Source: Thermoanaerobaculum sp.
GTDB taxonomy: Bacteria > Acidobacteriota > Thermoanaerobaculia > Multivoradales > UBA5704
DNA length: 64,000 nucleotides
Direction: 5' to 3'
Assembly (NCBI GenBank): GCA_021154885.1
Contig: JAJKHS010000063.1
Coordinates: 1-64,000, forward strand
Below the pieces are notes generated by a model. That model was not told where the DNA came from, did no database searches, and was given only the letters and a program-made list of their open reading frames with translations. Positions within the stretch are counted from its first letter, which is position 1; every line of letters starts with the position of its first letter. This document shows positions 10,101-64,000 of this stretch, one piece after another. The translations under genes and the position numbers were made by a program.

Positions 10101-10320
10101 CGTGCTCGAAGAGAGGCTCGAGCTGGGCCGCGATCCGCTCGCCGATCCTCTCGAACTGGCGCTTGGCCTCCTGGCGATCCAGAAAGCTCTCGATCCTCCC
10201 CTTAGCGACCTCGAGGAGGTCGTCGCCGATGGCCTCAGCGGGATCGCGAAGGTAGGACTTGAGGAGGATCTTCCCCAGGCGGGTGCCGAGCTTGACGACG
10301 AGGATCTCGGTAAGTGTCAT
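7171..10320 (-). CDS. NACHT NTPase with C-terminal leucine-rich repeats (NLR-like, probable defence protein)
   Basis: A 1049-residue STAND NTPase. Residues 1-210 are helical and charged, like the helical N-terminal domains of bacterial NACHT proteins. The NACHT module has the P-loop RGEAGSGKST (about 272-281) and Walker B LLLIDGIDEI (about 410-420), followed by winged-helix and helical regions (FIHNTFKEYLAGE near 660). Residues about 855-1045 are eight to nine 22-residue leucine-rich repeats of the pattern SDVSALSGLSGLxxLxLxGTxV. Bacterial NACHT proteins are known antiphage NLR-like sensors; the LRRs would be the sensing part. GGAG lies about 10 bases before the ATG. No separate effector gene is adjacent, so the N-terminal domain is the presumed effector. 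One repeat (RVALSRTAV) lacks a residue. Confidence 0.85.
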   Translation of the reverse strand: MTLTEILVVKLGTRLGKILLKSYLRDPAEAIGDDLLEVAKGRIESFLDRQEAKRQFERIGERIAAQLEPLFEHEFQRDQVSVEAVIFQLSGTLDGKISAEFFLGRDLDPAKLQAELKHLHPLPGGQFSNSEEELYDRALGEIVRYVVEIAAKLPRFEVTQVKESLQRLSRLEDMVGETAKSVKRIEEWVALQASDSESRQYELDYRLAIGRNLDYLELFGADLAPESKRQSLSVAYVSLSLDTTSGSRDQDAVPVPVGTVLSSLDEETGRLLIRGEAGSGKSTLFRWTAIQAAQGLFYSLKNLSSHDFLHICEGFSGSMAEGRLFLEGRSGGWLTRIVEKWPALRAGSAGLPSESKEAGGLPMWLFKLPFLLRLRDCKGGKLPSPEHFPTMLAKEIGSPPVAWVRSVLLAGRGLLLIDGIDEIPNLHRETVRREIEAIVNAYPKNLFLVSSRPEAVPPDWLSPLGFREARVNPMSELDRSRFIDKWHEAVAIELGRLGKPAADLPRLAAELKQQLPENPPVARLATNPLLCAMICALHRDRGQRLPESQSELCESLCHVLLHRRERESGLDLSEFPEPYRSLSYPQKRIIVQEIAHSMVLNGESTITTERAQEKVGEALRSLAGQSADNAEVVCSTLVERSGMLRETKPGHLDFIHNTFKEYLAGERFASSGDAGILAEHALDSTWQRVVLFAVATTRRDFAEEVIRRLLVRAAEAGKTPESRGYQLLALQARGGSLFVSRQIEKELDEIASKYLPPKSIADAEALARAGEMAVPFLKFKRALRAREAAACVRALRLIGTPRARALLEGYLEDRRASVVSELCQAVNPLSLKAIQEQLLEGKSLSAGVRSQISDLSPLSGLSGLRVLDLTGAAVSDVSALSGLSGLQELYLPGTAVSDVSALSGLSGLRVLALSGTAVSDVSALSGLSGLELLDLSGTAVSDVSALSGLSGLRVLDLGGTVVSDVSALSGLSGLETLFLSGTRVSDVSALSRLSGLQNLDLFGTPVSDVSALSGLSGLRVALSRTAVSDVSALSGLRIPEIFRKEFLRS
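7205..7750 (-). repeat. 66-bp tandem repeats encoding the LRRs
   Basis: About eight direct repeats of 66 bp (seen on the plus strand as AAGCCGCTCAGACCCGACAG followed by a shared ACACGTCGGACACCGCCGTCC stretch) encode the 22-residue LRR units of the NACHT protein. Variation is concentrated in the solvent-exposed 'xxLxLx' positions while the GTxVSDVSALSGLSGL part is nearly invariant at DNA level. The last full unit has lost one codon. This is a recombination-prone array, not a CRISPR. Confidence 0.85.
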
Positions 10321-25752: not shown

Positions 25753-27654
25753 TCACGACGACGCCTCCGGCGAGCGGACGATGAGCAGCGGCAGGCCGGG
25801 GAGCTCGGGCAGCAGCCGGCCGACGACCCCCTTGAGCTCGATCTCGCCGTCCTTGCCCGGCAGCGGCGAGCCCACCACCAGCAGGTCGTGCCCGCCGTCC
25901 CGGAGCTGGCCGAGGATCTCCGCCCGCACCCCGCCGTAGCGAATGCGAGTGGTGACCGGAATCCCCATCCGCGCCAGGGTGCGGGCGCTGCTGGCGAGGA
26001 AGCGCTCCGTCTGGGCGCCGTCGTCGAGACGCGCCGCCTCGGGAAGCACGGTCAGGATGGTGGCCTCGGCCCGCAGATGCCGGGCGAGGCGGCCGGCGAA
26101 GGAGACGTCCGCCTTGCCCGGCTCGCCCACGGCGACGCAGATCAGCCAGCGTTCCGGCGCCCGCCCGGGAGCCTCCGGCGGCACCAGCAGCAGATGATGC
26201 TGGCCGGCGGAGATCACGTCCTCGGCCAGCTTCAGGCCGTCCCGCGGCGCCGTGCCCAGCACCACGAGGTCGCACGGCCGGCGCGACGTCTCCTCGGCCA
26301 CGGCCGCGGGTGTCGCCTCCCCGCTCGTCCGGCTCTCCAGGCTCGCCACACCCGAGCCGAGCTGCTCGCGGGCCTCCTGGAGGCGGCGGTCGGCCTCCTC
26401 CCCCGGCTCGGTGCCCGGCGCCAGCACGGCGACCCGGGCATGGGCCAGGCGGGCCAGCTCGCCGCCCAGGGCGAGCGCCGCCCGCGACGGCGCGGAGCCG
26501 TCGGTCAGCAGCAGGAAGCGCAGGCCGGGGTGGACCAGGGCGTGCACCCGCCGCACGCCGACCCAGGTGGTGTCCCCCGTCTGCAGGGGGAAGCGCCGGG
26601 CCTGGTCCTGCGATCTCGTCGCCTCGATCCAGATGGAATCGCTGCCGAAGTGGACCACGGGCGCGATGGCCCGCACCCCGGGCAGGGCGGGCAGCCGCAG
26701 GCGCAGACGCTCGAAGGAGCCGATGAAGGCGCGCTGATCCACCACCGCCTGGCCGAGCAGCGGAAAGCTCGCCTCCTCGGCCGAGTCGCGCACCGCCACG
26801 TCCTCCGGCCGGAAGAGCACCTGTACCCGGCGGGCGGCGGTGGTGTCCACAATGTCTGCCGACCTCGGCTCGGCGTGCGTGCCGAGCGGGAAGCACACCG
26901 GCCCCACCCGCACGCCCTGCGGAGTCGCTTCCCCCACCAGCAGGTTGGCGGTGCCCAGGAAGGTGGCCACGAACTCCGTCTCCGGCCGCAGGTACAGCTC
27001 CTCGGGCGGTCCGGCCTCCAGCAGGCGGCCGAAGGAGAGCACCGCCAGCCGGTCCGCCAGCTCGAAGGCCTCCTCCTGGTCGTGGGTGACGAAGAGCGTG
27101 GTGACGCCGAGCTCGCGCTGGATCTCGCGAATGGTGCGCCGCAGGTCCGCCCGCACCTTGGCGTCCAGGGCGCCGAACGGCTCGTCGAGGAGCAGCACCT
27201 CCGGCTGATGGGCCAGGGCGCGGGCCAGGGCCACCCGCTGCTGCTGGCCGCCCGAGAGCTGGCGCGGCATGCGGCCGCCCAGCCCCGCGAGCCCCACCAG
27301 CTCCAGCAGCTCGTCGCGCCGCCGCCGCCGCGCCGTCTTCGGCGTGCCGCGCACCGCCAGGGCGAACTCGACGTTCTCCGCCACCGAGAGGCTGGGGAAC
27401 AGGGCGTAGCTCTGAAAGACGAAGCCCACCCCGCGCCGGGCCGGCGGCAACTCGGTGACGTCCCGGCCGTGGAGCATCACCCGGCCGGCGTCCACCTCGG
27501 TCAGGCCGGCGATCATCCGCAGCAGCGTGCTCTTGCCGCTCCCGGAGGAGCCCAGCAGCACGAACAGCTCGCCGTCCCCCACGGTGAGCGAGACGGCGTT
27601 GACCACCGGATGACCGGCGTAGCGCTTGGTCAGGTCCTCGAGCACGATCGACAA
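25753..27654 (-). CDS. cysA: Sulfate ABC transporter ATPase fused to two universal-stress-protein domains
   Basis: A 633-residue fusion. Residues 1-235 are the CysA-type ATPase: P-loop GSSGSGKST at about 35-43, signature [12 protein letters not shown], Walker [12 protein letters not shown], and switch His in [14 protein letters not shown]-like regulatory domain (about 240-345) follows with LFRPEDVAV. Residues about 350-490 ([34 protein letters not shown]) and 495-633 ([25 protein letters not shown], ending [10 protein letters not shown]) are two UspA-like domains. CysA proteins are normally about 330-360 aa without them. I start at TTG 27654 because GGGAGGAG is 9 bases upstream; the ATG at 27684 is the alternative. 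It is first in the sulfate operon. Confidence 0.9.
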
Positions 27655-27743
27655 GGGAACGGCCTCCTCCCGGCACGGGCTCATCGCCCCGCCGATGCCC
27701 CGCCAATATCCCGCCAACAGAGGGCGAGAATAGGGATGGCGGG

Positions 27744-27754
27744 TGACACTGTCA
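27744..27754. promoter_or_regulatory. Palindrome TGACACTGTCA in the divergent cysA/TPR intergenic region
   Basis: An 11-bp perfect palindrome (central C) lies 90 bp upstream of the cysA start and about 144 bp upstream of the divergent 27898 gene; a further GGTGACA half-site-like word occurs at 27764-27770. It is a possible operator for the sulfate operon. The rest of this 240-bp gap shows no clear -35/-10 pair by eye. Confidence 0.2.
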
Positions 27755-27897
27755 GTCGAAAGGCGGTGACAAAAGCTCCGCTCTCTGGAACCTGTCCGAC
27801 TTCGCCGCCATTTTCCTGCTGCGGCGTTGTCACTATTTCGGCTCTTGCGGCAACTAGAACTATGAGGGGACTTTGCAATGACTCTCAGGAGGGTAAC

Positions 27898-28716
27898 GTG
27901 GACTACCTTGAGGATATGGATGAGGGGGTTTCCCCCGCCGACGTGGACCACCTGCTCAGGCTTTCCCGACAGGACTCCCGCAACGTGATCCGCCAGATGC
28001 TGGCGGTCGTACCTGAGCGACCCGCGGCCGGACAGGAGCGCGGCCCGCGGCCCCCCGTCCGGACGGACGGGGAGGGAGTGCGCTACGACGAGGCGTTCCG
28101 CCGCACCGAGCACGTGCTCTCCGAGGCCCACGACCGGGTCCGGCGGGAGCGGGGGCTCGCGATCGTCCAGTGGGCGACGCTGGAAGGGCACCCCCCGACG
28201 CGCCAGCTTGTGATGGTGCGCAACGACGAGCGGCTCCACCACTGGGGGCTCTACGACCTCCTGCTGGAGAAGAGCCGCGGGGCGGCTCCCCGGGACGCCG
28301 GCGCCGCCATGAGCCTGGCCGAGATGGCCCTCGCCGTGGCCGAGCGGCTGTCGCCCGAGATCTACGGCGAGGAGCGTCTCGCCGACTTCAAGACCACCGC
28401 GCTCGCCGCCCTGGGCGACGCCCGCCGTACCGCCGGCGACCTCGCCGGCTCCCGCCTCGCCTTCAGTCAGGCTCGCATTCAACTGGAGATGGGCACCGGC
28501 GACCTCATGGAGGAGGCCAACCTCCTGGGCGCGCTGACCAACCTCCTCTGCGACCTGGGAGAGTACGGCAAGGCCGCCAGCTCCCTCGAACGGGCCACCG
28601 CCCTCTACCACCGTCTGGGGGACGACCGCCTCGACGGCGCCAGAATCCCCTGGCCGGCGGAGGAGGAGGGGCAGCAGCAGCACGAAGAGGAGAGCTGGGC
28701 GCGGGGAGGCGGATAG
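27898..28716 (+). CDS. TPR-like protein with degenerate zf-HC2-type N-terminus, apparently truncated
   Basis: A 272-residue protein. The first 45 residues (VSPADVDHLLRLSRQDSRNVIRQMLAV) follow the helix pattern of zf-HC2-like domains without the zinc ligands, and YDEAFRRTEHVLSEAHDRV follows as in related proteins. Residues about 135-255 contain tetratricopeptide-like helices (LAALGDARRTAGDLAGSRLAFSQARIQLE, then ALTNLLCDLGEYGKAASSLERATALYHRLGD). It ends abruptly in a low-complexity tail (EEEGQQQHEEESWARGGG), whereas the relative at 54917 is 448 aa, so a frameshift has probably removed the C-terminal TPRs. The GTG at 27898 has AGGAGGG 5 bases upstream; ATG 27862 is an alternative. Confidence 0.72.
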   Translation: MDYLEDMDEGVSPADVDHLLRLSRQDSRNVIRQMLAVVPERPAAGQERGPRPPVRTDGEGVRYDEAFRRTEHVLSEAHDRVRRERGLAIVQWATLEGHPPTRQLVMVRNDERLHHWGLYDLLLEKSRGAAPRDAGAAMSLAEMALAVAERLSPEIYGEERLADFKTTALAALGDARRTAGDLAGSRLAFSQARIQLEMGTGDLMEEANLLGALTNLLCDLGEYGKAASSLERATALYHRLGDDRLDGARIPWPAEEEGQQQHEEESWARGGG

Positions 28717-53035: not shown

Positions 53036-53235
53036 CTAGCCGTCCATCGGGTCTTTGACGACCGCGATGGCCGGGTCGACGACGATGTTGGCGGAACGCG
53101 TCAGTTTCTGATGGCTCACGGAGTCGCTAACATCAAGATCAAGGTCATAGCTGACTGCCTCTCGATGATGGCAGCGCAGCCCGATCCGGCAGTGCCGCGA
53201 CTCGAAGGCAGGCGCAATCGGCCGAAGGCAGGCTG
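53036..53235 (-). pseudogene. C-terminal remnant of an unknown protein
   Basis: On the minus strand a stretch ends SYDLDLDVSDSVSHQKLTRSANIVVDPAIAVVKDPMDG and a TAG at 53036-53038. This reads like the natural C-terminus of a beta-rich protein, but upstream (towards 53250) it runs into the minisatellite and no start or family is visible. It may be a fragment of a gene cut by the repeat region. I cannot name it. Confidence 0.35.
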
Positions 53236-53264
53236 TGGCAGACGGCTCATCGGACGTGGCGGGC

Positions 53265-53880
53265 GTCTTACCGCACACGCTTGACGAATCGCCGGACGTG
53301 GCAGGCGTGTCGCCGGGGATGGCAAGCGTTTTTCAGGACGTGGCAGATCTCAGATCGGGCATAGCAGGCGTCTCGCCGGGCGTGGCAGGCGTCTCACCGG
53401 GCGTGGCAGGCGTTTTACAGGACGTGGCAGGTCTCTCCCCGGGCGTGGCAGGCGTCACGCCGGGCATGGCAGGCGTTTTACAGGACGCGGCAGGCGTGTC
53501 GCCGGACGTGGCAGGCCTGTCACCGGGCATGGCAGGCGTTTCACCAGGCGTGGCAGGCGACGCGCCGAGCGTGGCAGACATCTCACCGGACGTGACCGAC
53601 GACTCGTCGGGAGTGACCGATATCTCGTCGGACATGGCAGACATCTCAAAGGGCATGCCCGGTCAACCGCCGGCCGTGTCCAGTGAACCGTCGGACGTGC
53701 CCGGTGAGGCGCCGGGAACGTCCGGTGAACCGTCGGACGTGCCCGATAAGACGCCGGGCGTGGCAGGCAAGACACCTGACGTGTCCGGCACGACGCCTGA
53801 CGTGTCGGGCAAGAGGTCGGGTGTGCCCGGCAAAACGCCGGGCGTGCCGGGCAACGCGCCCGGCGCAGCCGGGCTCGCAA
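53265..53880 (+). repeat. 21-bp minisatellite reading as heptapeptides
   Basis: About 25-30 units of 21 bp (for example GGCGTGGCAGGCGTCTCACCG) fill this space between the activator relic and the GNAT gene. On the plus strand they give heptapeptides GVSPGVA, GVLQDVA, GLSPGVA, later EPSDVPG and KTPGVAG, in a frame open over 53235-54038; on the minus strand TPGETPA. No ribosome-binding site or signal peptide supports translation. The array decays gradually to the right. It is the second 21-bp array in the window (the first is at 10445-10702). Confidence 0.8.
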
Positions 53881-53889
53881 CGACCCGCT

Positions 53890-54432
53890 TTAACACGCCT
53901 CTCTCTCCTCCGCGGCCCAGCTCTCCCGGTCGATGCCGTAGACCAGGTGCTCCTTCCCCAGGACCTCGGTCTGGCCTTGCAGCCTCTCGCCGAGGCGCTC
54001 GGCCACCCGGATGGAGGCGCGGTTCTCCGAAAGGATGAGGCTGAGGATGCGGTCCTTGTTCAGGACGGTGAAGGCGTGGGTCAAGGCGGCCCGGGCACCT
54101 TCCGTGGCGTAGCCGCGGCCCCAGCAGCGCCGCACGAGAGTCCAGGCGAGCTCGCAGCCTGGCCAGCCCTCCGGATCCGCGAAGCCGATCCGCCCGACGA
54201 ACGCGCCGGACTCCCTCTCCTCCACGGCCCACATGCCGTATCCCCGCAGCTTCCAGTGCCCCACCAGAAAGGCCAGGTGCCGCCAGGCCTGCTCGCGGCT
54301 GAATCGCACCAGAAGGTAGCGCGCCACCTCGGGGTCCGCGCACATCGCGGCGTACTCGTCGAAGTCGCTCCCCCGGAAAGGCCGCAGCCGCAGGCGCTCC
54401 GTCCCCAGGGTCGGAATGACCAGACCGTCCAT
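53890..54432 (-). CDS. GNAT-family N-acetyltransferase (RimJ/RimL type)
   Basis: A 180-residue cytoplasmic acetyltransferase. The N-terminus TERLRLRPFRGSDFDEYAAMCADPEVARYL and the acetyl-CoA-binding turn RRCWGRGYATEGARAAL (motif A, R-G-x-G-Y-A-type) plus LSENRASIRVAERLG are typical of the RimJ/RimL group that acetylate protein N-termini or small molecules. The ATG at 54430-54432 has GGAGGGAGGG just upstream. The minisatellite lies immediately after its 3' end. Confidence 0.9.
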   Translation of the reverse strand: MDGLVIPTLGTERLRLRPFRGSDFDEYAAMCADPEVARYLLVRFSREQAWRHLAFLVGHWKLRGYGMWAVEERESGAFVGRIGFADPEGWPGCELAWTLVRRCWGRGYATEGARAALTHAFTVLNKDRILSLILSENRASIRVAERLGERLQGQTEVLGKEHLVYGIDRESWAAEEREAC

Positions 54433-54916: not shown

Positions 54917-56263
54917 ATGCTGGAAGGAAGGCATGAGAGCAGGGATGGCTTGGCTCGCCTGTTCCGGGGCGAAGCGACGCCTGCGGAGATAGAGCGGGTT
55001 GCGACACACTTGGTCGGCTGTAAGGAGTGCTGGAGCCTTGCCATCAGAGCCATTGCAGACCAGGAGTCCGCCGGCTCGCTCAGCAGCGCTGGCCCGCTCA
55101 AGGCCGTGGTGGAGCTTTACCGTCTGGAGCAGGGGCGATTGGAAGAAGGGCTGGTTGCCCAGGCGGCCTGGATCGAGATTCGGTCCTTGGGCCTGAAGAC
55201 CAGGCGAGACAAAGTGAGGCTCACGAGATCACTCCACACGTTCGGCTTCCTGGAAACCCTGTTGACCGAAGCCCGAGGAGGCTTACCTCCCAAGGAAAGC
55301 GAAGAGCTTGCCTACCTTGCTCTGATCGTAACCCAGCAACTCCCCGCCAAATACACGCCCGCGATGAAGAGCGATTTCGCGGCGGAGTGTTGTGCAGAGA
55401 TCGCGAATGCCCGCCGGCGCGCTGCAAACTGGCCCTCGGCAAGAGAGGCTCTCAAAAAGGGAACCGAGTACGTCAGCAGAGGCTCAGGAAATCCCGCCGT
55501 TGAGGGCCAGTTGCTGTGTGTGAGCGCCGCGCTGGAGGCCGATCTGGGATTTCCGGCGAGAGCCGGCGAGCTTCTTCACAAAGCAGTTCGGCTTTTCGAA
55601 ACCGCCGCGAACTGGTCTCTGGTCAGCAGGGCTCTGGTGCAACTGGCATTCATTCTCACCGATGCCGACCCCAAAGAAGGTCTTCGAGTCGCCAACCAAG
55701 CCCTGGCCCTGATCCCTCCCGCCAATCAGCGACTTACTCTGTTCGCTGAAAACGTACGAGTCGATTGTCTGATTGCGCTGGGGGCACATCGCGAGGCTTT
55801 GCTTCGTTTTCAGGCTCTGAAGGACCTTCATGAACAATTTCTCGAGCCGTTCATCCAGTTAAGACGGCGATTCACCGCCGCGCGCCTTCTAGAAAGCCTG
55901 GGTCAATTGAAGAGAGCCGAGAAGATTTTTTACGAGGTTATAGCTGGTGATCTTGAGCACGGCTTAGTGAAAGACCTCTTTCTAGACTTGGTCTATCTCT
56001 TCGGCGCCTACCTCAGATACGGAGATGCGGCAGGAGCCTTGGCCGTCTGTCGCCGCGCAGTGAATGAGTTGTCTCTTCTGGAGGATGAAGATGGCAGCGG
56101 CAAGGCTGCTCGCGAGCAGATGCGTACTGTCTGGCTGAAACTGCAAGCCGGTATTCAGGACGGAACTGTCAATGCAGGTGCCGTGACAGTCATGCGTGAG
56201 TACATCAAAACCCACTGGCGAGCTCCCGCAGCCGAGTTGCCGAGTTTCAAGGCTCTCAAGTAG
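54917..56263 (+). CDS. Zinc-finger (zf-HC2-like) plus TPR protein
   Basis: A 448-residue cytoplasmic protein. The N-terminal module (LARLFRGEATPAEIERVATHLVGCKECWSLA) has the full HxxxCxxC zinc motif of anti-sigma zf-HC2 domains. The remainder is alpha-helical and contains TPR-like repeats (for example YVSRGSGNPAVEG, GELLHKAVRLFETAANWSLVSRALVQLAFI, ALLRFQALKDLHEQFLEPFI) across about 95-430. It is the complete relative of the degenerate members at 18486 and 27898. It may sense or sequester a partner, for example a sigma factor, but no sigma gene lies next to it. AAGGGAAG precedes the ATG. It ends 8 bp inside the convergent ChaN gene. Confidence 0.8.
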   Translation: MLEGRHESRDGLARLFRGEATPAEIERVATHLVGCKECWSLAIRAIADQESAGSLSSAGPLKAVVELYRLEQGRLEEGLVAQAAWIEIRSLGLKTRRDKVRLTRSLHTFGFLETLLTEARGGLPPKESEELAYLALIVTQQLPAKYTPAMKSDFAAECCAEIANARRRAANWPSAREALKKGTEYVSRGSGNPAVEGQLLCVSAALEADLGFPARAGELLHKAVRLFETAANWSLVSRALVQLAFILTDADPKEGLRVANQALALIPPANQRLTLFAENVRVDCLIALGAHREALLRFQALKDLHEQFLEPFIQLRRRFTAARLLESLGQLKRAEKIFYEVIAGDLEHGLVKDLFLDLVYLFGAYLRYGDAAGALAVCRRAVNELSLLEDEDGSGKAAREQMRTVWLKLQAGIQDGTVNAGAVTVMREYIKTHWRAPAAELPSFKALK

Positions 56264-57473
56264 ACCGCCGCAGAGCCACCCGCATCTCCTTCGTCTGCCC
56301 TCCCCGTTTCACTGCCAGCACCGCCTCGTCGCCCCACCGCTTTCCAGCCACCAGACGATTCAGGGTCTCCTTGTCCGGCACGGGCGTCCCATCGAGGGAG
56401 ACGATCACGTCACCCACTTGGACTCCGGCCTTTTCGGCGGGGGTTTTCTCGGAAACGAGGATGACCTTCAAAGCCTTCTCTCCTTCGACGGGATTGGTGG
56501 AGAGGCCGAGGGAGGGATAGATCGGATCGCTCTGCGCCGGCAGGCCCCATATGAAATCAGCGTAGGAGGCCTGGACGGTCTTGACGTCGTGGCCCTCCTC
56601 GTCGCGGACGGTCACCGGGACGATCGTCGCGATCCTGCCGTCGAAGTGGCGGGCGGCCTGGCGCTGGATGCCGAGGCCGTAGACGACGTGGCCGGAGCCC
56701 ACGAGGACGACCATGAGGGTCTCCGGCCCGCCGTGCTCTTTGAGCACTTTGACGGAATTGAAGGCCATCGTGGCGTCCCAGGTGGCCTGGGCGGCGAGCA
56801 TCGAGTCCACCTGCGCGTCGGTCATACTGGAGTGAAGCGAATCGCCGCCGCCTTCGAAGAACGACTTGAACAGCGTGCGGTGATCGGCGCTCGATGTGTC
56901 GATATCCGTGGGAATGTGGGCCGCCTCTTCGGACGTCAGGTTTTTGAAACCTTTCTTTCGCACCGCGGTGACGACGTCGCGGGGCGCGTTGACGGCAAAG
57001 ATGCGCAGCTTGTGATCACGGGCAAAAAGGAAGATGTCCCGATAATAAAGCCAGTTGTAGCCCCAGTTCTCATACCAGCGCGAGGTTTGGAGGAACTGCT
57101 CCTCGGTGAGTTGGCCGTCCACCCAACTGTCGAGGAACCGCTGCTCGGTGTAAGGGTACATCTCCAGCCCTACGAATACCGGCCGGCCGGCGCGCACCAG
57201 CTCCTGGACGACGCGCAGCTCGCAGCGGTGATAATCCATGTCCGTATGGCTCTCCCCCACCAGCAGCAGGCGCACTCCGGCGAGCCGCTTCGGCAGCTCG
57301 GCGGGCGTGATGACCTCGCCGCTGCGGGTGTCCGTGACGCCGTCGAGCACCAGCGTCGCCGTCTTGTCCTTGCGGGCCGGATCGCCGACGGCGAGGTGGA
57401 GGGTGCGCTCCTGGGCGTGAAGGGCGGGGGCGAGGAGGAGGGCGAGGAGAATGATGACGGCTTTGGTTTTCAT
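56256..57473 (-). CDS. Secreted ChaN-like protein with C-terminal PDZ domain
   Basis: A 405-residue protein with a signal peptide (MKTKAVIILLALLLAPALHA). The middle domain (about 60-300) is ChaN/Tiki-like: VRLLLVGESHTDMDYHRCELRVVQELVRAG, VFVGLEMYPYTEQ, SRWYENWGYNWLYYRDIF, and late VVLVGSGHVVYGLGI; the Glu-Ser-His and Gly-x-Gly-His motifs are those that bind metal or haem in that superfamily. The last 100 residues (LKVILVSEKTPAEKAGVQVGDVIVSLDGTPV) are a PDZ domain, an unusual addition. Likely periplasmic, with a hydrolase or haem-binding function. Confidence 0.85.
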   Translation of the reverse strand: MKTKAVIILLALLLAPALHAQERTLHLAVGDPARKDKTATLVLDGVTDTRSGEVITPAELPKRLAGVRLLLVGESHTDMDYHRCELRVVQELVRAGRPVFVGLEMYPYTEQRFLDSWVDGQLTEEQFLQTSRWYENWGYNWLYYRDIFLFARDHKLRIFAVNAPRDVVTAVRKKGFKNLTSEEAAHIPTDIDTSSADHRTLFKSFFEGGGDSLHSSMTDAQVDSMLAAQATWDATMAFNSVKVLKEHGGPETLMVVLVGSGHVVYGLGIQRQAARHFDGRIATIVPVTVRDEEGHDVKTVQASYADFIWGLPAQSDPIYPSLGLSTNPVEGEKALKVILVSEKTPAEKAGVQVGDVIVSLDGTPVPDKETLNRLVAGKRWGDEAVLAVKRGGQTKEMRVALRRST

Positions 57474-57483
57474 CGAGGTACCT

Positions 57484-58161
57484 TCAGGAAACCGGAGGAA
57501 ACCAGGAGGAGATCGCCTTGGCGATTCTCGCGAGCGCTGCCTCTCTTTTGAGGGCCTGGAGCGAGACCCTTTCCCCGATCCTGATATAGAGATCAGGAGA
57601 TCTGCGGAGGCGTACGAGGCGAACCAGGGCCTCGAACAGCTCTTTCGGATGGCGAGCCAGGGCAGCATCGAAGTCGTCAGGAATCCGCAGCCGCGGAGCC
57701 AATCTTCTTGACTCTTCGAGGATGGCGGCATCGCCTGGAGGAGGAGTCCGGCGGGGCTCGGCGACCACCCGTTTAATCTTCTGCCAGGCCGGTTTTCGAA
57801 AGGCGATCTCCAACTCGGGATCGAAAGCCACGGCGAGGATCCGATCCTCTGGGATGCCGGCATCGGCCAGCCTCCTTAACGCCAAGCTCTCGACGACTTC
57901 ATGGGGCCGAGCTTCATATCCGGAGCCTTGATGATCCCAGACGATCAAGAATCGGCAGTCCGTCCTAAAGAATGGAGCCAGCGGCCCCTCAGGCTCTCGC
58001 CACACGGTGTCGCGCCGAGGGTCTCGGAGACTCCGCCAGCGAAAGGGACGCGTGCAGTCCCGCCCCGTCTGCCCGCGCTCAATAAGGCCCTCGAAAAGTT
58101 TCTGCATCTCCAGATCAGAGAACAGGGCCACCAGATCGTACGGCGGCTCCTGGACGATCAC
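57484..58161 (-). CDS. TOPRIM-like/DUF4276-like partner of the AAA ATPase
   Basis: A 225-residue protein starting at GTG 58159-58161, overlapping the TGA of the ATPase in a GTGA arrangement. It contains an acidic start (LVALFSDLEMQKLFEGLIERG), then RFLIVWDHQGSGYE and ILAVAFDPELEIAF, the Glu, DxD/H and E-type residues of TOPRIM-like nuclease domains related to DUF4276. The C-terminal third is helical. OLD-like ATPase plus TOPRIM pairs are recurrent antiphage modules. The family assignment is moderate; a named system cannot be given. Confidence 0.7.
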   Translation of the reverse strand: MIVQEPPYDLVALFSDLEMQKLFEGLIERGQTGRDCTRPFRWRSLRDPRRDTVWREPEGPLAPFFRTDCRFLIVWDHQGSGYEARPHEVVESLALRRLADAGIPEDRILAVAFDPELEIAFRKPAWQKIKRVVAEPRRTPPPGDAAILEESRRLAPRLRIPDDFDAALARHPKELFEALVRLVRLRRSPDLYIRIGERVSLQALKREAALARIAKAISSWFPPVS

Positions 58162-59384
58162 GCGAGGACCCCGGTCACGAAGAGATCCGCAAGATTGACG
58201 TGACCAGTCCACTCTTGAAGCTCAGGAACTTCGGTAGCCCGTCGGACGATCGCGTAGCCCTGGGAGGCGCGCCGGAAGACGAGGACGTGTTCGAGATCGG
58301 TCTGCGCCAGAAAGATCGGCGAGTGCGTAGCACATAGGATTTGAGAGTTCGCCAGAGGATGCGAGAGGGCTTCGTGTACGATCTGGATTGCCAGCGGGTG
58401 GAGCCCGTTCTCCGGCTCTTCAATGAGATACGTTTCCGGATTCTCCTCGGTGGCGGCGTAGCTCACCAGAGTCAACGCCATCAGGCGAAGAGTCCCGTCC
58501 GAAAGCATCCAGGAAGGGACTGGCTCCCGATGCTGCCCTGCGAAAACGACTCTGAGAACCAGGGATCTGTCCTCCGGGCGCTCCCAGACATCGACCGATT
58601 CCAAGCCTTCCACGGCAGTCCCCACGTGTCGCACCCATTGCTCGAACAGCACGGGATCACGCAGCCGAAGGGCGTGGATCACGCGCGCCAGGTTCGAGCC
58701 GTCGGGGTAGAGTGTGGTCGCCTCCCCAGGCGAGGACACTCCCCGCATCGCGTTCGCGTCCAGTTGGAGGGACCATATTCTCTCCTCCAGGAGGTCCCGT
58801 CCGGCGAGCGACAGGGGGAAGAGGTCCGGGTCTCCCAAAAGGCTGCCGAGGGCTGCCTCTCCGGCCCCCACACGGAACGGGTATTCCTTTCTGCCAGTCT
58901 CTGCGCGAAAAAGGACCGTGCCGTCTTCTGACTTGCTGATCACTCGCTTCCATCGCCTTGGGATCTCTCCATTGCCATGGACCAGCGAGAAGTCTCCTTC
59001 ATCCCATCGCGGCGCCTCCGGGTTTCCTATGGACGGCAGAAGGAAGAGGTTTTCTCGCAGCACCTGGAGGCCGAGCTCGTGGGTGATGCCGATCTCAATC
59101 TCGTATCGAAGCCGGCGCTCCCGCGCATCGGATTCTGGCACCGACAACTCGACAGCCAGAGAGATGGGTTCGGCGGGATCAAAACAGAGATCGTAGAAGC
59201 TTGCAGCAGCTAATTCAACAGGGTGACGCACGCCGTATTTCGCTACATCTCTTAGGAACTGAAGAGAGCCCAGGAAGGTCGACTTTCCCGTGGCGTTTTG
59301 CCCCACCAGGACCTGATAGGGCTGCAGCGCCACGGAGTTGGACCGCAGCATGCGAAAATTCTTGGCCTGAAGGAGTTGGATCAT
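58158..59384 (-). CDS. AAA (AAA_21/OLD-like) ATPase of a two-gene defence-like module
   Basis: A 408-residue ABC-like ATPase. The P-loop GQNATGKST is at about 28-36 (after MIQLLQAKNFRMLRS, a typical 'NF' strand); near the C-terminus are the signature-like LSDGTLRLMALTL, Walker B YLIEEPENGLHP, and the His-switch ILCATHSPIFLAQ. This matches the single-ATPase AAA_15/AAA_21 proteins that pair with TOPRIM nucleases. It directly precedes and overlaps the TOPRIM-like gene by 4 nt. It may sense phage or DNA ends; role inferred. Confidence 0.87.
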   Translation of the reverse strand: MIQLLQAKNFRMLRSNSVALQPYQVLVGQNATGKSTFLGSLQFLRDVAKYGVRHPVELAAASFYDLCFDPAEPISLAVELSVPESDARERRLRYEIEIGITHELGLQVLRENLFLLPSIGNPEAPRWDEGDFSLVHGNGEIPRRWKRVISKSEDGTVLFRAETGRKEYPFRVGAGEAALGSLLGDPDLFPLSLAGRDLLEERIWSLQLDANAMRGVSSPGEATTLYPDGSNLARVIHALRLRDPVLFEQWVRHVGTAVEGLESVDVWERPEDRSLVLRVVFAGQHREPVPSWMLSDGTLRLMALTLVSYAATEENPETYLIEEPENGLHPLAIQIVHEALSHPLANSQILCATHSPIFLAQTDLEHVLVFRRASQGYAIVRRATEVPELQEWTGHVNLADLFVTGVLA

Positions 59385-59432
59385 ACCGTCCTCTGGCCAA
59401 GTCTATCTCAAAGTATCGGATAGACTTAGACC

Positions 59433-60842
59433 GTGCCTCCCGCCCTCCTCGCCGCCCTCCGCCACGACATTCCCAGCGCCGGCGTCGGCTTCATCCTCCT
59501 CGGTCTGGGCCTCGCGGCGGGGGCCGTGGCTTTCGCGCGGCGGCGGACGGGCGATCCGACGCTGCTCTACTTCTCGATCTTCACCACTCTCTACGCCGTG
59601 CGGCTGCTCTGCGACCTGGAGGCGACGAAGCTCCTGTACGCGCCGCCTCAGCCGGCCTGGGACAAGCTGATCCTGATCCTGAGCTATCTCATGCCGGTGC
59701 CGGGAGGGCTCTTCTTCGAGCGGCTGATGCCGCCCGGCCGGCTGCGGTGGGTCCGCCTCTTCTGGCAGGTCATGGCGGTGCTGGCGGCGGTCGCCATTCC
59801 CGTGGAGATCGCCTCGCCCGCTCCGGGTGCCATGCTCGGCCCCTACCACGTCCTGGTGCTGGCCGGCGTCGCGACCGTCCTCGTCAACGTGTTCTGGCCC
59901 GACCGGGAGAGGACGCCGGACCAGCTGCTCCTGCGGGCGAGCTTCCTCGTCTTCATCGCCTTCGCGATCTACGAAAATCTCCGCGGCATGGGATTGACGC
60001 CCTGGACCGGGAACGTGGAGCATTTCGGATTCCTGTTCTTCGTCTGCGGCCTGGGGACGGTGGCGGCCCGGCGCGTCTTCGGCGATCAGCAGCGGCTGAC
60101 CGAGATCCGCCAGGAGCTCGCGACGGCGCGGCGCATTCAGGAGTCGATCCTGCCGGGGGAGCCGCCGCGGATCGCCGGGCTCGACCTCGCCTCCCGGTAC
60201 GTCTCAGCGACCGAAGTGGCAGGGGATTTCTACGAATTCATTCCGGCCGAGGGGCGGCGTCTGGGCATCCTGGTGGCGGACGTCTCCGGCCACGGTGTGC
60301 CCGCGGCCCTGGTGGCCTCGATGCTGAAGGTGGCGGTGGCGGCTCAAGGCTCCCACGTCGCGAGCCCGGGCCGGGTGCTCTCGGAGGTCAACGCCATCTT
60401 TCACGGCAAGCTCAAGAACCAGTTCATCACCGCCCTTTACGTCTACCTGGACCTGGAGGCCGGCAGCCTCACCGCGGCCAGCGCCGGCCATCCGCCACCG
60501 CTGGTATGGCGGCGCTCCTCGGGACAGGTCGAGGAGTTGCCGCCGGGCGGCGTCGTCCTCGGCCGCCTGCGCCGCGCCGCCTATCCCGAGGTCGCCGTGC
60601 CCCTCTCACCCGGCGACCGCGTCCTGCTGTTCACGGACGGCATTCCCGAAGCGCTGAGCCCCGGCGGTCAAATGTTCGGGGAAGAGCGGCTCCGGGAGGT
60701 CCTCGCCGCCCACGCCTCCCAACCTGCCGAAACCACGGCCGAGGCGATCGTCGCCCAGGTCGCCGCCTGGACGGGCCGGAGCTCGGGGTTCGACGACGAT
60801 CTCACGCTGGTGGTGGCGGGAGTCGAGCCAACTGGTGCATGA
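59433..60842 (+). CDS. Membrane-bound SpoIIE-family PP2C phosphatase
   Basis: A 469-residue protein. Residues 1-210 contain about six or seven hydrophobic helices (a 7TM-type sensor domain). Residues 230-469 are a SpoIIE/RsbU-type Ser/Thr phosphatase: ATEVAGDFYEFIPAEGRRLGILVADVSGHGVPAALVASMLK (metal Asp and GHG), then VLLFTDGIPEAL and GFDDDLTLVV (metal Asp). It probably dephosphorylates an anti-anti-sigma factor in a stress-signal pathway. It starts at GTG 59433 in the short gap after the divergent ATPase gene. Confidence 0.9.
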   Translation: MPPALLAALRHDIPSAGVGFILLGLGLAAGAVAFARRRTGDPTLLYFSIFTTLYAVRLLCDLEATKLLYAPPQPAWDKLILILSYLMPVPGGLFFERLMPPGRLRWVRLFWQVMAVLAAVAIPVEIASPAPGAMLGPYHVLVLAGVATVLVNVFWPDRERTPDQLLLRASFLVFIAFAIYENLRGMGLTPWTGNVEHFGFLFFVCGLGTVAARRVFGDQQRLTEIRQELATARRIQESILPGEPPRIAGLDLASRYVSATEVAGDFYEFIPAEGRRLGILVADVSGHGVPAALVASMLKVAVAAQGSHVASPGRVLSEVNAIFHGKLKNQFITALYVYLDLEAGSLTAASAGHPPPLVWRRSSGQVEELPPGGVVLGRLRRAAYPEVAVPLSPGDRVLLFTDGIPEALSPGGQMFGEERLREVLAAHASQPAETTAEAIVAQVAAWTGRSSGFDDDLTLVVAGVEPTGA

Positions 60843-60844
60843 GG

Positions 60845-60936
60845 CAAGGAATCAAAGGACTGCAAGGACTTCAAGGACACCAAGGACAGGGTCTCCTCGT
60901 CCTTGATGTCCCTGGTGTCCTTGATGTCCTTGCTCT
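60845..60936. repeat. 9-bp-periodic hairpin element, copy 4
   Basis: Left arm 60845-60890 (AAGGAATCAAAGGACTGCA, AGGACTTCAAGGACACCAAG) and right arm 60899-60936 (GTCCTTGATGTCCCTGGTGT, CCTTGATGTCCTTGCTC) with 9-bp period (AAGGACnnC). It lies directly between the stops of the convergent PP2C and TonB genes, so it may act as a bidirectional terminator. Confidence 0.8.
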
Positions 60937-60937
60937 G

Positions 60938-61717
60938 CTACCGCTGGATGGTGAAGTTCACCGTCAGCGTGAAATACACCTTCACCGGCCGGCCGTCGAG
61001 CAGCGCGGGCTTGAAGCGCCACTGCTGGATGGCTTCGAGGGCGGCCTTGTCCAGTCCCATGGGCAGGCCGCGGATCAGCCGCTCGTTGGTCACCCGGCCC
61101 TGTTCGTCGATCACGGCCTCCACGATCACCGTCCCCTGGACCCCCGCCGTGCGCGCGATCTCCGTGTAGCGGGGCTGGACCTGGTGGACGACCTCCGGCT
61201 TCGTCATGCCGAAGGAGAGGCGGATGGGCGAGGTGTCGACCGGTGCGCTGGGCTCCACCGCCGGGCCGACCGGACCGTCGCCGTGCCCCGGACCGGGGGG
61301 GCAGCCCGGGCAGTCGCCATTCCCGGGGCCGGGTCCCAGGTAGGGGTCGTCGCCCGTGGCCGGACCCGTGGGGACGAGGGGAGGCGTCGTGTCGGCCGTG
61401 GCCGGCGCCGGCGGCTTCTCGGGGATGGTCTTCAGGTCCGGCTGCATGAGCTGTTTCGTCGTCTGCGGCGCCGTCTGCTTCTTCTGCTCCGGCTGGGGCT
61501 TGGGTTTCGGTCCGCCACCGCCGCCGTCCGGAGGCGGCAGGGTCACGACGAAGACGTCGGCGAGCTGAGGGTCCGGCACCGTGCCGACGTTCCAGTAGCT
61601 GGCGAGGGCGAAGGCGGTCAGGCCCGCCACGTGGAGGCCGACGGCGATGGGCAGGGAGAGCCAGCGGCGCCGGGGGCTCGGCTGCGCTTCAAGGTCGATG
61701 AGAGAGTGCTCGAACAT
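60938..61717 (-). CDS. tonB: TonB-family energy transducer
   Basis: A 259-residue protein with one N-terminal transmembrane helix (WLSLPIAVGLHVAGLTAFALASYW, about 20-43), a proline-rich periplasmic linker, and a C-terminal TonB domain (VQPRYTEIARTAGVQGTVIVEAVIDEQGRVTNERLIRGLP, KAALEAIQQWRFKPALLDGRPVKVYFTLTVNF). It transfers inner-membrane energy to outer-membrane receptors. No exbBD or receptor is nearby in this window. The start at 61715-61717 (MFEHSLIDLE) is the obvious one. Confidence 0.92.
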   Translation of the reverse strand: MFEHSLIDLEAQPSPRRRWLSLPIAVGLHVAGLTAFALASYWNVGTVPDPQLADVFVVTLPPPDGGGGGPKPKPQPEQKKQTAPQTTKQLMQPDLKTIPEKPPAPATADTTPPLVPTGPATGDDPYLGPGPGNGDCPGCPPGPGHGDGPVGPAVEPSAPVDTSPIRLSFGMTKPEVVHQVQPRYTEIARTAGVQGTVIVEAVIDEQGRVTNERLIRGLPMGLDKAALEAIQQWRFKPALLDGRPVKVYFTLTVNFTIQR

Positions 61718-61886
61718 GATCCACCTCCAGGTCCCGGATTCGGTTGTCCTCGCAATGGTCCCCGCCTTGTGGCGAGGGGTCGTTCGGAGCGCTCCTGTAT
61801 GGATTAGAGGGGGGAGGCGGGGAATTGGTTCCAGGGAGCAGGGTCAGCCTCGCCCCGGAATTGAACTCCCGGCCTACGCGCTTGCT

Positions 61887-62005
61887 TAGGGTAGGGGCGG
61901 GTCTGGAGGGGTGGGAGGGGGCTCGACCCGCCCTGCAACGGCGAGATCGTCTTCCCCAGGGCGGGTCGAGCCCCCAACCTGCCGTCCAGACCCGCCCCTA
62001 CCCTA
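61887..62005. repeat. Long inverted-repeat (REP/MITE-like) element
   Basis: Arms of about 49 bp: TAGGGTAGGGGCGGGTCTGG ... CTCGACCCGCCCTG (61887-61935) and CAGGGCGGGTCGAG ... CCAGACCCGCCCCTACCCTA (61957-62005) are reverse complements with a few mismatches (GTGGGAGGGGG versus CCCCCAACCTGCC), around a 21-nt loop. It looks like a nonautonomous palindromic element. The rest of the 418-bp gap between tonB and the NYN gene (61718-61886, 62006-62135) shows no gene. Confidence 0.85.
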
Positions 62006-62135
62006 GGCATCGAGGCCAAAGTTAGCGCCTATGGCCCGGGGTGGTGAGGGGCCGAGGCTCCTGATATCTTTGCCGGGCGACGACGCCGGCCCATGCCAGG
62101 CGCCGCGCCGAACAGATCTTTCATTGGAGGTTGGA

Positions 62136-63806
62136 ATGCCCGATTCTCATCCGAGCCCGACGCACTTGCGGTCGGCGCTCTTCGTCGACTTCGACAACAT
62201 CTATCTCGGCCTGCAGCGCGAAGACCCGGTGGCCGCCGAGCAGTTCGCCACTGATCCCGGCCGCTGGCTGCTCTGGCTGCAGGACAAGCTCCCCCACCAC
62301 GACGCCGAAGGGCGCCGGCGGATGATCCTCTTCCGCCGCTGCTATCTCAACCCCTCGCAGTTCGGCCGCTTCCGCCCCTACTTCACCCGCTCGGCCTTCG
62401 AGGTCGTGGACTGCCCGCCGCTGACCAGCGGCGGCAAGACCAGCGCCGACATCCACATGGTGATGGACATCCTCGACACGCTGAGCCATCCGACGCGCTT
62501 CGACGAGTTCATCCTGCTCTCGGGCGATGCCGACTTCACGCCGGTGCTGCTGCGCCTCTCGAAACACGACCGGCGCAGCGCCGTGCTGGCCATCGGCCCG
62601 GCGTCGGTGGCCTACAAGGCGGCCTGCGACCTGCTGATCGACCAGGACACCTTCCTGGAGGACGCCATCGGCGCGACGCCGGGCCAGGCCACGCGCGCTG
62701 CTTCGGGCCCCTCCGCCACCTCGGCGATGGGCGAGCTGCTGCGCCGCATCGCCGACAAGGTCTACGAGCGGGCGAGCGCCAGCGGCGAGCTGGTGGCGAC
62801 CGAGCTGCCGCCCATCTTCCGCGAGTTCCCGGAGTTCACGGCGAGCACCAACTGGCTGGGCTTCAACAGCCTGCGCAACATGACCATGGGGGTGATCCAG
62901 ACGCGGCAGGACCTGGCCATGCTGGACGGCGATCCCTGGCGGGTGGGACTGGTGACGGAGGACGAGGCGGTGGCGGCCGACCCGGGGCCCGGGCCCGCCG
63001 AGCAGGGCCGCCCCACGCCGGTGCCGCGCTTCCTCCCTCCCGCGGACCGCAACCGGCTGATCGAGGAGGTCCTCGCTCATGTCCGCTCGGTGGTGGACGC
63101 CTCGGATTCGGCGGTGCCCATGGCGCGGGCGGCGCAGATGGTGATCAGCCGCTTCGGCGAGCAGGTGCTCTCCACCCGCTGGGCGGGCGCCGGCACCTTC
63201 CGCGACCTGCTGGAGGGGCGGGAGAACCCGGGCTTCGCCATCTCGGCCTTGAAGCCGGGCTACATCTACGACCCGGCCCGGCACCAGCTCCCCATCGACG
63301 GCCGGCCCGAGGAGCTGGTGGGAGATCCGGAGCTGAACTCGCTCGCCTACCGGGTGCACCAGCTCACCGACACGCCCTACCTGACGCGCGGCGACTACGC
63401 CCGGGTCTTCCGCCTCACCGCCGAGGAGGTCAGCGAGCACAGCTACTTCCTCACCCGCACCTCGAAGGCGGTGCGCGACCGCTGCATCGAGGAGGGCTCG
63501 CCCATCGCCCGCGCCAGCGTCAACTTCATCCTGCGCGGGATCACCTTCGGCGGCCACCGCTTCGGCCAGAACGGCCCGGAGGACCCGCTGGCCCTGGCCT
63601 CCTGCTTCTTCCGCAACGTCATCAGCCTCTGCGACAGCGCCGGCATCTCCCTCGATGCGAGCGAGATGCAGACGCTCTCCGACTGGATCCTCGGCGATCT
63701 GAAGCGGGAGGCCTCGGAGCGCGAGGAAGGCGAGGACGAGGAACGGGAGCCCGTGACAGTGGGAGCGCAGCCGGAGGGCGACGACGACGAGACCGCCGGT
63801 GGCTAG
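62136..63806 (+). CDS. NYN-domain protein (PIN-like RNase, LabA/DUF88 type)
   Basis: A 556-residue cytoplasmic protein. The N-terminal NYN/LabA domain (about 10-175) has Asp in SALFVDFDNIYLGL, Lys and Asp in GGKTSADIHMVMDIL, and Asp in FILLSGDADFTPVLLRL, the acidic site of metal-dependent PIN-like RNases. Later regions (ELLRRIADKVYERASASGELVATELPPIFREFPEF around 195-235, and PMARAAQMVISRFGEQVL) look like winged-helix/LOTUS-like RNA-binding modules, and the tail is acidic (EREEGEDEERE). A GGAGG 5 bases before the ATG supports the start. Probably involved in RNA turnover; targets unknown. Confidence 0.85.
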   Translation: MPDSHPSPTHLRSALFVDFDNIYLGLQREDPVAAEQFATDPGRWLLWLQDKLPHHDAEGRRRMILFRRCYLNPSQFGRFRPYFTRSAFEVVDCPPLTSGGKTSADIHMVMDILDTLSHPTRFDEFILLSGDADFTPVLLRLSKHDRRSAVLAIGPASVAYKAACDLLIDQDTFLEDAIGATPGQATRAASGPSATSAMGELLRRIADKVYERASASGELVATELPPIFREFPEFTASTNWLGFNSLRNMTMGVIQTRQDLAMLDGDPWRVGLVTEDEAVAADPGPGPAEQGRPTPVPRFLPPADRNRLIEEVLAHVRSVVDASDSAVPMARAAQMVISRFGEQVLSTRWAGAGTFRDLLEGRENPGFAISALKPGYIYDPARHQLPIDGRPEELVGDPELNSLAYRVHQLTDTPYLTRGDYARVFRLTAEEVSEHSYFLTRTSKAVRDRCIEEGSPIARASVNFILRGITFGGHRFGQNGPEDPLALASCFFRNVISLCDSAGISLDASEMQTLSDWILGDLKREASEREEGEDEEREPVTVGAQPEGDDDETAGG

Positions 63807-63812
63807 CCCGTC

Positions 63813-64000
63813 ATGAGCGGGGGGAGTTGGGAGACCGGGGAGGACGAGCTCCGCGCACTCCAGGCCCTCCCGGCCGCGGACCGGGCCATCCAGCTCGTGC
63901 AGCTCGTGGCCGACTGGGAGGAGGCCTGGGGGCTGAAGGACGAGCAGGGCTGGGTGGTGGCCAAGGCGACGGACGCCCTCCCCCTCTGGCCCCACCCCGA
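63813..64000 (+). CDS. DUF2750-like protein, N-terminal part
   Basis: The frame begins at ATG 63813, six bases after the NYN stop codon, and runs beyond the window. Its 62 visible residues (ELRALQALPAADRAIQLVQLVADWEEAWGLKDEQGWVVAKATDALPLWPHP) match the DUF2750 pattern 'WGL.D..GW........LP.WP'. Function of DUF2750 is unknown. Its close spacing suggests an operon with the NYN protein. Confidence 0.7.
   Translation, partial: MSGGSWETGEDELRALQALPAADRAIQLVQLVADWEEAWGLKDEQGWVVAKATDALPLWPHP

Follow-up and report, generated by a model that had tools for sequence, protein, structure and literature searches.

Stand-alone relatives of MAD3 and MAD4: an OLD-type ATPase gene overlapping a gene for a putative TOPRIM effector in Thermoanaerobaculum sp.

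The gene pair and its surroundings

The window analysed here, a whole stretch of 64,000 nucleotides of Thermoanaerobaculum sp. DNA, carries on its minus strand two overlapping genes. Their products are probably a sensor-like protein driven by ATP and a smaller partner resembling a nuclease, and the two genes probably represent a divergent member of a familiar virus-defence class. The first gene (58158..59384, minus strand) begins at an ATG and encodes a MAD3-like, OLD-type ABC ATPase of 408 amino acids, as assigned with NCBIfam MADS3, Pfam AAA_21 and AlphaFold2. The second (57484..58161, minus strand) begins at a GTG and encodes a MAD4-like protein of 225 amino acids with a predicted TOPRIM fold, a putative nuclease effector according to NCBIfam MADS4, AlphaFold2 and the list of structural matches. 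The stop codon of the ATPase gene and the start codon of its partner overlap in a GTGA (58158..58161, minus strand) that would allow translational coupling, and the same 4-nt overlap occurs in the related genomes G246 and G397; a putative Shine-Dalgarno-like AGAGGA (59389..59394, minus strand) lies ahead of the ATPase ATG. The original prediction had placed both genes and the GTGA overlap at these positions, and all of them stand. A longer reading frame (57484-58212) from an earlier GTG was listed for the second gene, but two points favour the GTG at 58161: the 4-nt coupled start (GTGA or ATGA) also occurs in the relatives from G397 and G246, and the MADS4 homology of the second protein starts at residue 9.

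In the two nearest relatives, identity to the window pair (MAD4-like/MAD3-like) is 66/64%, for the G397 copy, and 57/53%. Differences from the G397 copy at the first, second and third codon positions are 0.28/0.19/0.54 for the ATPase gene and 0.29/0.22/0.585 for the partner gene, which is the pattern of selected coding DNA and marks both, on this comparison of sequences, as conserved protein genes. The pair is no chance arrangement, since homologous adjacent pairs exist in other genomes and the codon-position differences are of the coding type. No sigma-70-like promoter was found in 56000-60000 of the window, Rfam gave no match in 55000-64000, and the window contains no tRNA.

The pair sits among ordinary genes (ChaN-PDZ, SpoIIE, TonB and NYN). 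No defence island is visible around it in the window, and a comparison of the 62 other open reading frames with PADLOC at E 1e-8 matched no family, a generic ABC-transporter match aside. The closest neighbour, a gene for a ChaN-like haem-uptake protein with a PDZ domain (56256-57473, minus strand), starts 10 bases downstream of the pair, but a functional link was rejected and the gene is probably a chance neighbour, since ChaN lies on other contigs, away from the pair, in the same-genus genomes G396 and G397. The TonB and NYN genes that flank the pair in the window also adjoin it in G397, whereas G396 has the SpoIIE-TonB-NYN block without the pair, and a profile search of that genome found no MAD4. 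At third codon positions, the pair diverges between the window and G397 about twice as much as the adjacent NYN gene does. This would be consistent with a replacement, or with separate arrivals at the same site, but is no more than suggestive because TonB is also fast. The pair has a G+C content of 0.59-0.635, compared with about 0.67-0.72 on the SpoIIE side. Among the other copies, the pair in L029 adjoins an Eco57I-type methylase and a helicase with a PLD domain, while the neighbours scanned at six further loci (L026, L028, L030, L033, L036 and L037) are ordinary genes or unassigned.

Two other reading frames of the window deserve separate mention. One (7171-10320, minus strand) encodes 1049 amino acids that, read by eye, contain a NACHT-type NTPase (GEAGSGKST) and C-terminal leucine-rich repeats; it is possibly a bacterial NLR-like defence protein, and it had no PADLOC match at E 1e-5. 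The other (53235-54035) is made of short repeats such as GVSPGVAG.

An OLD-type ATPase and a predicted TOPRIM fold

All the ABC-type motifs announced by the original prediction can be read in the ATPase: GQNATGKS, LSDGT, YLIEEPENGLHP and ATHSP, which we take to be Walker A, the signature, Walker B with the D-loop, and the switch histidine, respectively; E322 and E323 are the presumed Walker-B acids. Many of these motif columns are invariant among 16 relatives. The protein scores 81.6 bits against Pfam AAA_21, 340.2 bits over its whole length against NCBIfam MADS3 (cut-off 420), and 155 bits against HEC-01A, the nearest PADLOC model (residues 2-393 of 408). When a profile of the 16 relatives was compared with the PDB, the best sequence match was the Thermus OLD nuclease (E 8.2e-17), with PtuA and GajA next; the AlphaFold2 model (pLDDT 87.7) structurally resembles Rad50/SMC heads, PtuA and OLD. 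By this profile match, the protein is assigned to the OLD-type ABC ATPases.

The PADLOC mad3 model was not discriminating, as an ABC-transporter-like reading frame elsewhere in the window (25756-28683, minus strand) scored 107 bits against it, compared with 78.6 bits for the true MAD3-like gene. This model alone does not identify MADS, and the PADLOC ATPase models in general are loose and cross-match. The apparent second 'mad3' and a 'mad8' match in the window were the ATPase part of that same reading frame, and not a second copy.

For the partner, NCBIfam MADS4 gave 68.4 bits over residues 9-222 (cut-off 160), and nothing else notable emerged from Pfam or NCBIfam. The strings VWDHQGSG and VAFDPELE, on which a TOPRIM-like nature had been proposed, are present, and the predicted structure bears the proposal out. 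An AlphaFold2 model built from an alignment of 15 relatives (A1) has a mean pLDDT of 92.4 and shows four strands that alternate with helices, plus a tail that is helical. Its top structural match is the C-terminal region of BpOLD (Z 11.0, rmsd 4.3, 178 aligned), followed by the C-terminal region of XccOLD (Z 9.4-9.8), a chain of a PARIS complex (8.3), Thermus OLD (7.8), GajA (7.6) and retron Eco8 (6.8), against a background of unrelated lumazine synthases that reach Z 7.2. Since Foldseek alone returned no match with E < 0.001 for this model, the TOPRIM/OLD assignment draws on the OLD matches that lie above the lumazine synthase background and on the ATPase context. DUF4435, DUF4276 and RecR/primase-type folds are missing among the structural matches listed, which is uninformative. 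With these points in mind, the partner can confidently be given a predicted TOPRIM-type fold nearest to OLD nuclease C-terminal regions. The profile comparison of both proteins suggested at the outset thus worked for the ATPase, with Thermus OLD as the best PDB match; the partner profile gave chance matches only against the PDB.

In BpOLD, metal A is bound by E400, D455 and D457 and metal B by E404, T506 and E508, with K562 in addition (PMC6755086). Four residues of the partner, D76, E116, E118 and K173, are invariant in 15/15 rows of A1, and D16 is nearly invariant, with one exception in L037, a row that is frameshifted at its start. The order of residues along the predicted fold suggests that D76 corresponds to D455, E116/E118 to T506/E508, and K173 to K562, and that S15 or D16 occupies the E400 position; D76, E116, E118 and K173 are thus candidate catalytic residues. 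Of the OLD TOPRIM motifs, D76 is present, but Q78 takes the place of the second acid, and S15-D16 stands where the canonical VEG glutamate would be. At residue 78, the BpOLD D457 position, the 15 rows have E in 10, Q in 3 (window, G397 and G246), D in 1 and H in 1. Single substitutions in BpOLD such as D457A are described in the same study as without discernible effect (PMC6755086), so Q78 is no proof of inactivity. Alignment A1 left out L039 (a MAD4 match with no ATPase beside it) and L034 and L038 (broken TOPRIM gene) and kept L037 despite its frameshifted start; alignment A2 left out L038 and L039; six copies found later (L119-L124) are in neither alignment nor in the trees; and some rows of A1 and A2 begin a few residues ahead of the likely start.

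Relation to MADS and other named systems

The closest named relatives of the two proteins belong to MADS, reportedly the methylation-associated defence system of Maestri et al. 2024. Almost the full length of each window protein can be aligned with the corresponding NCBIfam model, MADS3 or MADS4, but both scores fall under the equivalog cut-offs (340 < 420; 68 < 160). The reference operon, on Piscinibacter plasmid NZ_CP136338.1 (L060), scores over cut-off for NCBIfam MADS1, 2, 3, 4, 5 and 7, and its genes have the same order and overlapping start as the window pair. The window pair, in contrast, has no mad1, mad2 or mad5-mad8 beside it and belongs to a separate deep clade. When the Piscinibacter MADS proteins (mad8 partial) were used in tblastn against the window and its flanks, mad3 matches alone were obtained. 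Against the 23 copies inspected, they matched mad3 and mostly mad4 too, and otherwise one generic kinase domain in L119 (mad6, 31% over 154 aa, ~4.5 kb from the pair) that was judged to be an ordinary protein kinase; no convincing MADS neighbour was seen in these 23 copies, the absence being weaker where flanks are short (a 4.9-kb contig in L027, a 7-kb contig in L040, and a pair at the contig end in L025).

MADS5 was over cut-off in 0/17 carriers and the MADS2 methyltransferase in 0/396 genomes of the phylum, the window's genome included in both cases, although for MADS2 the top 2 candidates per genome were scored, so that a weaker match might have escaped. Nor is there support for a complete MADS at another place in the window's genome, given that tblastn of the window and its flanks returned no MADS gene but mad3 and that MADS5 and MADS2 stayed under cut-off. 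By sequence, the two window proteins are diverged homologues of MAD3 and MAD4, two components of the eight-gene MADS, and the pair counts as a stand-alone cassette because no other MADS gene lies nearby and no convincing MADS neighbour occurs in the 23 copies. In one genome, sub-cut-off MADS5-like and MADS2-like matches (L068 and L111, G291:C10:40224-43528) lie next to each other, while the pair is on a different contig.

The pair also shares features with several other systems. With PARIS (AriA ABC ATPase plus AriB TOPRIM), it shares the split into two genes, and one PARIS-complex chain, inferred from its length to be AriB, is the partner's structural match at Z 8.3. However, the partner is closer to OLD C-terminal regions and, as the original prediction had it, lacks DUF4435: Pfam recognised this family neither in the window protein (searched up to E 10) nor in 15 relatives (up to E 1), and PARIS membership by this route was rejected because hhalign against the one DUF4435 protein in 60 genomes was also null. 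Like the OLD nucleases, Gabija GajA and retron OLD effectors, the pair combines an ATPase that is OLD-type by profile with a predicted TOPRIM fold nearest to BpOLD/XccOLD, but OLD classes 1-3 have the ATPase and TOPRIM in one polypeptide, while the window has two separate reading frames, and the partner has DxQ for DxD and no VEG motif.

For HEC-01, which is presumably the name of a two-gene PADLOC candidate, the outcome of the PADLOC scan was mixed: the ATPase matches HEC-01A over nearly its whole length at 155 bits, in a comparison for which PADLOC has no cut-off and ATPase models cross-match, but the partner matches HEC-01B weakly (15 bits, E 0.0038, the 47 residues 169-215), and 8/15 partner-family rows match that model at E 0.01. 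No experimental description of HEC-01 was found in the literature searched. For DUF4276 (PF14103), the window partner gave no match up to E 10, whereas 6/15 rows of the wider MAD4-like family match weakly (best 1.8e-5) and the profile-profile probability is 90.9, which points to a remote kinship; two DUF4276 matches occur elsewhere in the window's own genome (L078 and L084, G000:C56 and G000:C78).

The pair is thus within the broad OLD-ABC/TOPRIM kind, and the ATPase/TOPRIM layout proposed for it, PARIS- or OLD-like, is upheld by an OLD-like ATPase profile and a partner fold near OLD and the PARIS chain. An exact match to a named system was not obtained, as the pair scores too low for MADS by the NCBI thresholds and lacks the rest of that operon, and as its partner has no DUF4435, the family of AriB in PARIS. 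The proposal of a distinct type is supported only in part: the scores are below the NCBI cut-offs and other MADS genes are lacking, but the proteins do have named relatives, MAD3 and MAD4 in NCBIfam and HEC-01A for the ATPase in PADLOC.

Across the phylum, a protein search matched 15/396 genomes (one of them, L039, has no ATPase beside the match and hence no real pair), the MADS4 profile matched 19/396 at E 1e-8 and 14/396 over cut-off, and a scan of genome contigs found one relative, MAG J023, whose contig is that of G246. The two genes or their remains are adjacent in each of the 23 copies inspected, which come from 22 genomes (17 loci, L023-L038 and L040, plus six, L119-L124). The window, G397 and G246 form one deep clade in both gene trees (100/100), set off by long branches of 1.17 and 1.8 changes per column and with DxQ at the second TOPRIM motif, while the single true MADS copy groups with the stand-alone L040 copy, apart from the window clade, in these unrooted trees. 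Both genes are uninterrupted in 17/23 copies, the TOPRIM gene alone is broken in four (L034, L037, L123 and L124), the ATPase gene is broken with a nearly whole TOPRIM frame in one (L122), and both are damaged in one (L038); the numbers are small and draft-assembly errors are possible, but an excess of breakage in the TOPRIM gene over the ATPase gene would fit a toxic effector.

Searches for stand-alone pairs found no copy among the phages, viral contigs and plasmids covered: tblastn of plasmids with the TOPRIM protein gave nothing, viral contigs gave nothing with this protein or its profile, and phage records gave nothing with the ATPase at E 1e-10. Viral contigs contain seven weak ATPase relatives (24-31%) by profile, and plasmids searched with the G398 proteins contain one true MADS and one lone ATPase. 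On a Geoalkalibacter plasmid (NZ_CP010312.1; L073 10001-11224), a MAD3-like ATPase without an annotated MAD4-like partner adjoins an Eco57I-type methylase, a gene with a nuclease-related domain and a DNA methyltransferase.

A possible sensor-effector cassette and its alternatives

The analysis shows the gene pair, its families, predicted folds and conservation, and the absence of other MADS genes near it, while complex formation, nuclease activity, a substrate, a trigger and an antiphage role are inferences. The reading we consider somewhat more probable than its competitors combined is a stand-alone cassette of an OLD-family ABC ATPase and a separate, translationally coupled TOPRIM protein, homologous to MAD3-MAD4, in which the ATPase senses infection and licenses the TOPRIM nuclease effector in a PARIS-like manner. 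An ATPase oligomer would sense an infection signal and would hold or license the TOPRIM protein; once activated, this protein would cut nucleic acid, either host tRNA, the way PARIS does, or DNA, the way OLD and Gabija do, using metal ions on D76, E116/E118 and an acid near S15-D16, with K173 assisting; and the cleavage would halt phage growth.

PARIS is the precedent for such a split, as an AriA hexamer sequesters AriB, phage triggers free it and AriB cuts tRNA, and MADS is named in the same paper among the systems that pair an ABC ATPase with TOPRIM (PMC12409363). The sensor-effector reading is supported by the coupled genes, adjacent in 23/23 copies, by the OLD-like ATPase and the OLD/PARIS-like partner fold, and by the four invariant candidate residues, which follow one another as the metal sites and K562 do in BpOLD. 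A role in defence is supported by relatives that belong to the MADS operon, and a costly defence effector fits the patchy distribution (19/396), the absence from a same-genus genome that keeps the neighbours, and breakage mostly in the TOPRIM gene. The same reading is weakened by the null result with Foldseek alone, by Q78 in the clade and the missing VEG glutamate, by the lack of a defence island and by the lack of stand-alone copies in phages, viral contigs and plasmids.

A different course of events, to which we would give perhaps a minor share of our belief, is that the ATPase brings the TOPRIM protein to DNA and that invading DNA is nicked or degraded directly by an OLD/Gabija-like nuclease complex, with no release or tRNA-cleavage step. 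The closest folds of the partner are C-terminal regions of OLD proteins, for which DNA cleavage is described (PMC6755086), and the Rad50/SMC-, PtuA- and OLD-like ATPase model agrees with such a complex, but the two proteins are encoded separately, as in PARIS, and not in one chain, and no Gabija-kind helicase partner was recognised in the flanks tested with Pfam. It is improbable that the pair is the remnant of a MADS operon, kept temporarily or acting as a regulator while nuclease activity is lost or fading. Replacement of the second acid by Q78 in the window clade and broken TOPRIM genes in several relatives are what such decay would produce. In the three-genome clade, however, both genes are whole and constrained at the amino-acid level, stand-alone pairs occur across the phylum while MADS2 exceeds its cut-off in none of the 396 genomes, and D457A by itself left BpOLD without discernible change. 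We are just as sceptical of a role for the pair in house-keeping or the cell cycle, with no part in defence against phages: the ordinary surrounding genes would suit it, and a non-defence OLD-family ATPase is reported from an archaeon (PMC12796447), yet the pair is rare and patchy (15/396 by protein, 19/396 by profile), missing from a same-genus genome, and frequently broken, unlike a core function.

Beyond the sensor-effector cassette itself, a more speculative proposal, which we regard as doubtful, is that the stand-alone pair is an autonomous defence system older than MADS, and that MADS is an operon based on methylation that took in this ready-made module as its backup effector. The window clade would be a separate subtype, and its altered DxQ site would work on another substrate or use a single metal; proteins automatically named MAD3 and MAD4 in this phylum would then mostly belong to this other system. 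Recruitment of the pair into MADS is a possibility rather than a result, the trees being unrooted and containing one MADS copy. No account of the role of MAD3-MAD4 inside MADS was found in the literature searched, and no description of stand-alone MAD3-MAD4 pairs was found in the partly covered literature on MADS, HEC-01, DUF4276, PARIS and OLD-ABC, which does not establish their absence in print. One report describes TOPRIM-linked OLD-ABC pairs as a widespread module and as a backup effector of BREX (PMC12839542).

The NCBI MADS3 and MADS4 equivalog models fire on pairs outside MADS (14/396 genomes over the MADS4 cut-off against 0/396 for MADS2), so automatic counts of MADS from these two models alone could be inflated. 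Bacterial immunity makes recurrent use of pairs of an OLD-type ATPase and a TOPRIM protein as a building block, and the stand-alone two-gene version provides a minimal and testable form of the MAD3-MAD4 module.
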